Assembly: GCA_003009755.1 (NCBI GenBank)
Contig: PXUB01000030.1
Span: 1-64,000 of the forward strand
Direction: 5' to 3'
Length of the DNA: 64,000 nucleotides
Source: Thermoplasmatales archaeon SW_10_69_26
GTDB taxonomy: Archaea; Thermoplasmatota; SW-10-69-26
Part shown: positions 9,461 to 62,725 of the stretch, in pieces
Layout of the letters: the number at the start of each line of letters is the position of its first letter
How positions within the stretch are numbered: position 1 is the stretch's first letter
Notes under the pieces: generated by a model
The model's input: the letters and a program-made list of their open reading frames with translations, nothing else
Database searches by the model: none
What the model was told of the DNA's origin: nothing
Position numbers and translations under genes: made by a program

Positions 9461-9802
9461 ATCCCCCGGTGCGGGGAGTAGTCCCCGTTCTGTTGCCCGA
9501 TCGCGAGGATCGGACGGCGGCATTCGTCTGTGCGTCCCACTTGCCCCTCGCCGCGGACACCTCGACGGGGCGGTTCGGACTTGCTCCGGGGAGCCCGGCA
9601 CGTTTCATCCGTTCCACCGTCGTCGTCGGGGGCTTTCCCCCGTCATCCCGTGACGGTGGCGGTGTCGTTTCTGCTCCGGCTCGCGAGGTCTCCCCCACCC
9701 GGCCTTGTCGCCGGTCCCGGTCCTCGGTGAGCGGGGACCTTCCTCGGTTCGGACCGCGGCGAAGCCGCGGGAACCGTTGGCCGCCCTCCCGCTCCGGGGG
9801 AT
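9461..9802 (-). ncRNA. rnpB: RNase P RNA, archaeal type
   Basis: The catalytic RNA that trims tRNA 5' ends. On the minus strand the conserved blocks appear in order: GAGGAAGGTCCCC (9745-9733), GAGCAAGTCCGAACC-like in the specificity domain, GACGAATGCCGCC (9528-9516), and ACAGAA (9493-9488). Helix P4 forms between GTCCCC (9738-9733) and GGGGAC (9486-9481). The closing helix P1 pairs ATCCCCCGG (9802-9794) with CCGGGGGAT (9469-9461). The length of 342 nt is normal. Long hairpins such as CCGCGGCgaaGCCGCGG near 9757-9773 match P3-like and specificity-domain stems. Ends are set by P1 and may be off by a few bases. Confidence 0.9.
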
Positions 9803-62137: not shown

Positions 62138-62269
62138 GCCGTCGGCAACCGGACGCCCCGTCAAGAGGTTACCGGAGCTTCGACGTGCCCGTCGACGGCG
62201 ACCGCGCCGACACGGGCCCGGCGACGGTAGCTCTGCGCGAGGATTCAACCGCGCCTAAGATCGGTAACA

Positions 62270-62467
62270 CTGGGGCCTAGGCCGCTGGCGAGGGGGGTTT
62301 CTTTCTTCGCGACCGTTTTTCTTTGTCCCCCTCGCCAGGCGAGAAGGCCCCGTAGAAAGAAAGAGGGTCGAAGAGAGGAAGAACGAGCGGACGAGGGGGC
62401 GAGGATCCGATGAAGAGGTGTTGCCGAGGTGTTGCCGAACCCACACACGCCCGGCCTCGTCCGCTTC
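62270..62467 (-). ncRNA. candidate structured RNA, about 200 nt, promoter-driven
   Basis: Minus-strand order: AGCGGACGAGG (62465-62455) pairs with CCTCGTCCGCT (62396-62386), 11 bp. GGGGCCT and AGGCCCC (62351-62345 with 62278-62272) pair 7 bp. CTGGCGAGGGGG (62338-62327) pairs with CCCCCTCGCCAG (62296-62285), 12 bp. The loop of that last stem holds a purine run at 62306-62298 complementary over 9 bases (plus-strand TTTCTTTCT to AGAAAGAAA) to 62362-62354, a pseudoknot. TATA-like CATATCAA (62490-62497) is centred 27 nt from 62467, two bases before the first stem. No frame in it looks coding. It does not match an RNA I know. Confidence 0.6.
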
Positions 62468-62489
62468 ACGCCCAACGTCCCCGCGGGCC

Positions 62490-62497
62490 CATATCAA
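62490..62497 (-). promoter_or_regulatory. TATA box of the structured RNA
   Basis: TTGATATG on the minus strand. The predicted start at about 62467 coincides with the base of the 11-bp stem, which supports a real transcript boundary. Confidence 0.6.
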
Positions 62498-62725
62498 TCG
62501 TCTCGTGAAGCCGTATTCGCGTCGTCGAACAGGCGTTGGTCGGGCCTGTCAGGCGATGTGGCGGGTCGCCTGCGGGTCGGCGGCACGCGTACCCGACGGC
62601 TGCCCCGTCGAGGCGGACAGAGGGAGCTCGCGGGCGGGGCCGGCTCCCTCAGCGCGTGGGTCCGACGGACTGACGGGTCCCGTGAAAGATAAGCCTCTTA
62701 TCAACCGGCACCGGTAGTTGGCCTG

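Follow-up and report, generated by a model that had tools for sequence, protein, structure and literature searches.

Core element and its neighborhood

Positions 62206-62369 (+) of the window, that is, the whole 64,000-nucleotide stretch of Thermoplasmatales archaeon SW_10_69_26 analyzed here, are one copy of a dispersed non-coding element, which is probably mobile. It comprises a 5' domain (62206-62264, +) and a core RNA (62265-62369, +). The 5' domain, provisionally placed from alignments and from the match of a covariance model (R1, see below) to 62206-62369, is common only to the SW_10_69_26 copies and absent from those of other archaea; a coding function for it was rejected by eye, given changes at all codon positions. 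The core, matched by a second model (R2) at 62265-62368, contains two helices, two U-rich strands and a 3' purine tract.

Both helices of the core had been pointed out in the original prediction and are confirmed by direct reading of the + strand. P2 is formed by GGGGCCT (62272-62278) and AGGCCCC (62345-62351), 7 bp in all, and P3 by CTGGCGAGGGGG (62285-62296) and CCCCCTCGCCAG (62327-62338), with 12 of 12 positions in Watson-Crick pairs. The first U-rich strand, Y3 (TTTCTTTCT, 62298-62306, +), is the proposed Hoogsteen strand and follows the purine tract at 8/8 positions here. The second, Y2 (GACCGTTTTTCTTT, 62311-62324, +), is the Watson-Crick partner of the purine tract R (AAAGAAAGAGGGTC, 62356-62369, +), and their 14 positions include 12 Watson-Crick pairs, one G-U pair and one mismatch. 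In other copies, R marks the precise end of the element, at stop codons, tRNA 3' ends and gene-end duplicates.

The order of the parts on the + strand is P2 - P3 - Y3 - distal loop - Y2 - P3' - P2' - R, where the U-rich strands are enclosed by P2 and P3, Y2 pairs with R, and Y3 tracks R with U over A and C over G. The topology is probably that of an H-type pseudoknot with a putative triple helix, as in the ENE of MALAT1 and PAN. The pyrimidine-motif triple helix, with U matched to A and C to G, is that of MALAT1, the PAN ENE and telomerase RNA. The pseudoknot had been proposed from a 9-bp complementarity between 62298-62306 and 62354-62362, which is real in the sequence but amounts to Y3 against R, that is, to the third strand; the partner of R that is conserved family-wide is 62311-62324. 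An HDV-like ribozyme, which the topology might recall, was rejected for want of a separate P3 hairpin with an active-site loop.

Next to the core, an 11-bp perfect stem (62386-62396/62455-62465) encloses an 11-bp tandem duplication (GAGGTGTTGCC twice, 62415-62436), and a putative TATA-like box, TTGATATGG, is present at 62489-62497 (-). All of these had been noticed before, and the stem and the box had been assigned to the same RNA, read from the minus strand with a start near 62467. However, the region at about 62389-62531 resembles C17:82628-82772 (L005) with about 75% identity, its sole other copy in the genome. The stem is invariant between both copies, the C17 counterpart of the box is only loosely similar, and a core copy is adjoined both times, on opposite sides. 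The stem, duplication and box (62386-62465 and 62489-62497) are an element distinct from the core. The data do not support the stem as part of the core RNA, the box as its promoter or a start near 62467.

Searches of Rfam at gathering and permissive thresholds gave no family matches at the locus. Elsewhere in the window, an archaeal RNase P RNA lies at 9467-9796 (-) (Rfam RF00373, 139.8 bits).

Copies in the genome and in other archaea

About a dozen relatives of the core were found in the SW_10_69_26 genome by blastn. R1, which was built on 11 SW_10_69_26 copies, gave 39 matches there at E<=1, of which about 20 are near-complete and the rest are fragments or tandem partners. The core is a dispersed repeat rather than a single-copy gene. 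A minus-strand leader for the downstream acetyltransferase gene was also rejected, because the remaining copies sit next to unrelated genes. Core copies occur in both gene orientations, as well as in tandem and inverted pairs, and in some SW_10_69_26 copies the loop or the P3-P2 interval contains additional hairpins. Two copies near contig ends, C17:82932-83087 (L065) and C36:65046-65207 (L068), are without the P2/P3/R side and have CTCAATCGCC in common at the break point.

In the class to which SW_10_69_26 belongs, R1 found 0 copies in six further genomes, and a DNA similarity search in 60 relatives returned nothing beyond chance level outside the SW_10_69_26 genome; a sequence pattern for the 5' domain had no match in genome and viral collections. 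Across the phylum, R1 matched two distant genomes, weakly but with exact agreement in structure. A sequence pattern then located copies in Thermoplasmata MAG RS_9_71, Methanomassiliicoccales MAG CSMAG_1135 and archaeon Dive96_bin4.290, the last of which is apparently one and the same as the RS_9_71 or the CSMAG_1135 genome, with identical match places. R2 was built from the copies of these other archaea only, and its top match in the SW_10_69_26 genome is the window copy on the + strand (E=1.5e-4). Since R2 holds no SW_10_69_26 sequences, this is an independent confirmation of homology. The predicted new structured RNA with a pseudoknot is thereby borne out: it has no Rfam match, and the covariance-model search of archaeal genomes recovered relatives that retain the pairing.

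In the sampled phylum, which is probably Thermoplasmatota judging from the named records, R2 matched 6 of 389 genomes, with 31, 24, 14 and 9 copies in four of the carriers. It should be noted that the carrier genomes all appear to be draft assemblies.

Conserved pairing, strand and third strand

Ten sequences from the other archaea have 90.6% of their cells paired, vs. 67.7+-2.5 in shuffles and 25-45% in slid-structure controls, and changes on both sides were seen in 13/18 pairs. For the SW_10_69_26 copies, 89.6% are paired vs. 82.4+-1.1 after shuffling (0/500 shuffles); P3 shows both-side changes at 7/12 pairs, including repeated G-C to C-G flips, and the Y2-R pairing is kept, with a mismatch near the outer end. 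An ordinary intergenic sequence whose chance stems and purine tracts mimic a pseudoknot, to which the modest folding z on the + strand might lend some color, is scarcely credible, being contradicted by the copy family and cross-genome detection and already refuted because the pairing covaries.

The wobbles of P3, read on the + strand, stand at G-U:A-C ratios of 12:1 for the other archaea and of 10:5 for the SW_10_69_26 copies, or 22:6 when summed over G-U vs. A-C (combined p=0.004). The excess of G-U over A-C therefore favors a + strand RNA, and the functional strand is most likely +, not the minus strand that had been proposed. The 5' domain may contain a 4-bp hairpin, and the G-U pairs of that hairpin fall on minus. 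Compared with shuffles, the folding energy gave z -2.4 for the region on minus, and z -1.42 on + and -3.36 on - for the core; such single-sequence folding energy is modest evidence only.

Over 24 sequences, Y3 runs parallel to R (U with A, C with G) at 159/192 positions vs. 145.8+-3.8 expected (5/20000 permutations), a test weakened because the tracts are of low complexity and the copies are related. With a fixed register, the tracking in other archaea is 69/72 vs. 58.3 (27/20000 permutations); in the SW_10_69_26 copies alone it is weak (z 0.24 for the fixed and z 2.0 for the free register).

Placement at gene ends

In 10 of 22 SW_10_69_26 copies, an intact convergent gene has its stop codon directly at the R end, either overlapping or touching it. 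The chance of this is roughly estimated at about 4e-14, given about 1.2% qualifying intergenic positions. By eye, the ten genes look like a set that includes cyclophilin, archease, RtcB, NMD3, PheRS alpha, an Lhr-like helicase and ribosomal protein S27ae. In genome G322, four copies are separated from the 3' end of a tRNA by 0-1 nt (ARAGORN), further contacts of R with tRNA 3' ends were seen by eye in other archaea, and many copies in the latter come after stop codons in the + sense.

At about 10 loci in other archaea, a fragment of a gene terminus lies outside R, beginning 0-3 nt from it, with a full copy of the gene on the inner side. The differences between the duplicates are mostly synonymous (about 66 synonymous vs. 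12 non-synonymous). Among SW_10_69_26 copies, a recoded gene-end duplicate occurs at C9 only. There, C9:35396 and C9:39169 (L081), 3.8 kb apart, both contain about 20 nt from the 3' terminus of an Lhr-like helicase gene, as if this had been copied along with the element. At G389:C337:6100-8230 (L288), a full gene, read by eye as ABCE1/Rli1-like, lies between two inverted element copies, and its N- and C-terminal fragments, with partly synonymous changes, lie outside. This bracketed pattern looks like an insertion with a long duplication, and it may also reflect replacement by a gene copy from a diverged relative or an assembly error.

A proposed mobile triple-helix RNA and competing explanations

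The copy family, the covarying pairs, the strand sense, the third-strand tracking, the precise R-side end at gene ends and the patchy multicopy spread can all be read from the sequences themselves. Among mechanisms, a mobile element whose RNA forms a triple helix is the best supported. We lean, at slightly better than even confidence, toward 62206-62369 (+) being a mobile, ENE-like pseudoknot/triple-helix RNA element that protects 3' ends and is placed at gene termini. The + strand of the element would be transcribed; P2 and P3 would hold the internal loop, in which R pairs with Y2 and Y3 overlies them as a U.A-U / C+.G-C triple helix. Like the ENEs of eukaryotic transposon RNAs, this structure would guard the 3' end of the RNA against decay and so help the element, or a gene upstream of it, to persist. 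Some enzyme would insert the element at stop codons, at gene termini and at the 3' ends of tRNAs.

It is unlikely that the functional molecule is instead a minus-strand RNA, namely a 3' UTR or terminator element with a U-rich tract at the stop codon and an H-type pseudoknot whose A-rich loop lies in the minor groove. Archaeal terminators are U-rich, the 10/22 SW_10_69_26 copies, read in the direction of the adjoining gene, start at its stop codon and continue with UUUUUCUUU, the four G322 copies come after tRNA 3' ends, and the folding z is better on minus. However, the wobble counts favor +, the copies of other archaea often lie behind stop codons in the + sense, and a terminator would neither need an exact junction nor be expected to form a patchy multicopy family.

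We are likewise doubtful of a purely DNA-level miniature transposon that folds as single-stranded DNA for some recombinase, the RNA being incidental. The precise end at gene ends, both gene orientations and the tandem and inverted pairs would suit it, and pyrimidine-purine mirror tracts form triplexes in DNA too; yet one strand has the G-U excess over A-C and the tandem G-A mismatches, which indicates that selection acts at the RNA level, and no enzyme common to the carriers was found. TnpB (PF07282) is absent from the SW_10_69_26 genome and above cut-off in 1/8 carriers, tyrosine integrase (PF00589) is missing in both the 31-copy and the 24-copy genome, and reverse transcriptase (PF00078) is present in only 2/8 carriers. 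Consequently, these three were rejected as the mover, being absent or uncorrelated with the copies.

The gene-terminus duplicates might also suggest an RNA-guided or homing element, in which the terminus sequence 3' of the scaffold is a guide and the synonymous full gene copy inside escapes cutting. Their position just outside R and their mostly synonymous differences fit this; nevertheless, 7/8 genomes are without TnpB above cut-off, the SW_10_69_26 copies except C9 have no recoded duplicate, and replacement of the gene by a relative's version accounts for this pattern too, so that we hold this explanation to be quite improbable. A bolder version, with a horizontally spreading homing element made of a triple-helix scaffold and a terminus guide, whose neighboring host gene would have been exchanged for a synonymously altered, cut-immune version, making it a natural cleave-and-rescue system, is a long shot.

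Comparison with known systems

The favored reading of a mobile triple-helix RNA invites comparison with the ENE and MALAT1/MENbeta RNAs, including PAN and plant and fungal transposon RNAs. To our knowledge, ENE-type RNA triple helices have been described only from eukaryotes and their viruses. As in those RNAs, an internal loop between G-C rich helices contains two U-rich strands, one of which pairs with an A-rich tract located downstream, U.A-U would be combined with C+.G-C, and there is a link to mobile elements; the second U-rich strand is in register with the A-rich tract according to the permutation test, which is based on sequence only and weak for the SW_10_69_26 copies alone. Unlike them, the archaeal element has no sequence relation, its R is genomically encoded and purine-mixed, it has an extra 3-4 bp past the mismatch, and it sits at gene ends. 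It is therefore ENE-like by sequence, and membership is not claimed because 3'-end protection is predicted only.

The ENE of transposon RNA consists of a U-rich internal loop and an A-rich tract; the triple helices of this type hold the A-rich tract and make the 3' end of the RNA decay more slowly, and a retrotransposon ENE in Arabidopsis raises RNA stability and mobility (PMC12501189). If the archaeal element is a multicopy counterpart, prokaryotes would have the same solution for the 3' end, probably of independent origin and, once more, in mobile elements. That copies sit exactly at stop codons and tRNA ends, together with the recoded terminus duplicates, points to an insertion or gene-replacement process with no known enzyme match here.

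Other systems share part of these features. The telomerase-RNA H-pseudoknot with its major-groove triples and the SAM-II/SAM-V riboswitches also have a U-rich loop 1 over an A-U rich stem 2, whereas the archaeal element has neither ligand gene context nor reverse transcriptase and is multicopy and dispersed. REP, ERIC and MITEs are likewise short, structured, non-coding, dispersed and intergenic, but they differ from the archaeal element in its covarying pseudoknot and exact stop-codon/tRNA-end placement. As regards the hallmarks of MITEs, no terminal inverted repeats were seen in the copies read by eye, and what might correspond to target-site duplications are the duplicated gene ends at about 10 loci elsewhere and, in SW_10_69_26, at C9 only. 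TnpB/IscB guide RNAs (omega-RNA, HEARO) resemble the element as pseudoknotted RNAs adjoining a precise element end, whereas for the latter the search for TnpB gave no matching nuclease and Rfam gave no match. The core element appears to be undescribed; no archaeal ENE-like family was found in the literature, of which coverage was partial, so that this is weak evidence.

The sequence pattern also matched bacterial genomes, and these matches were excluded from the family because the pattern picks any pyrimidine-purine-purine run. In Selenomonadaceae MAGs (L165, L146, L141, L198 and L201), and also at L158, runs of about 24 pyrimidines occur together with the reverse complement and with a purine copy that mirrors them exactly; these loci are candidates for intramolecular triplexes in bacteria. 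In an Oscillospiraceae MAG (L127, two places), as well as at L188 and L168 (Gastranaerophilales), a small U-rich/U-rich/A-rich pseudoknot with a short GC stem lies within hairpin-rich sequence, and more loci of these MAGs were matched by the pattern.
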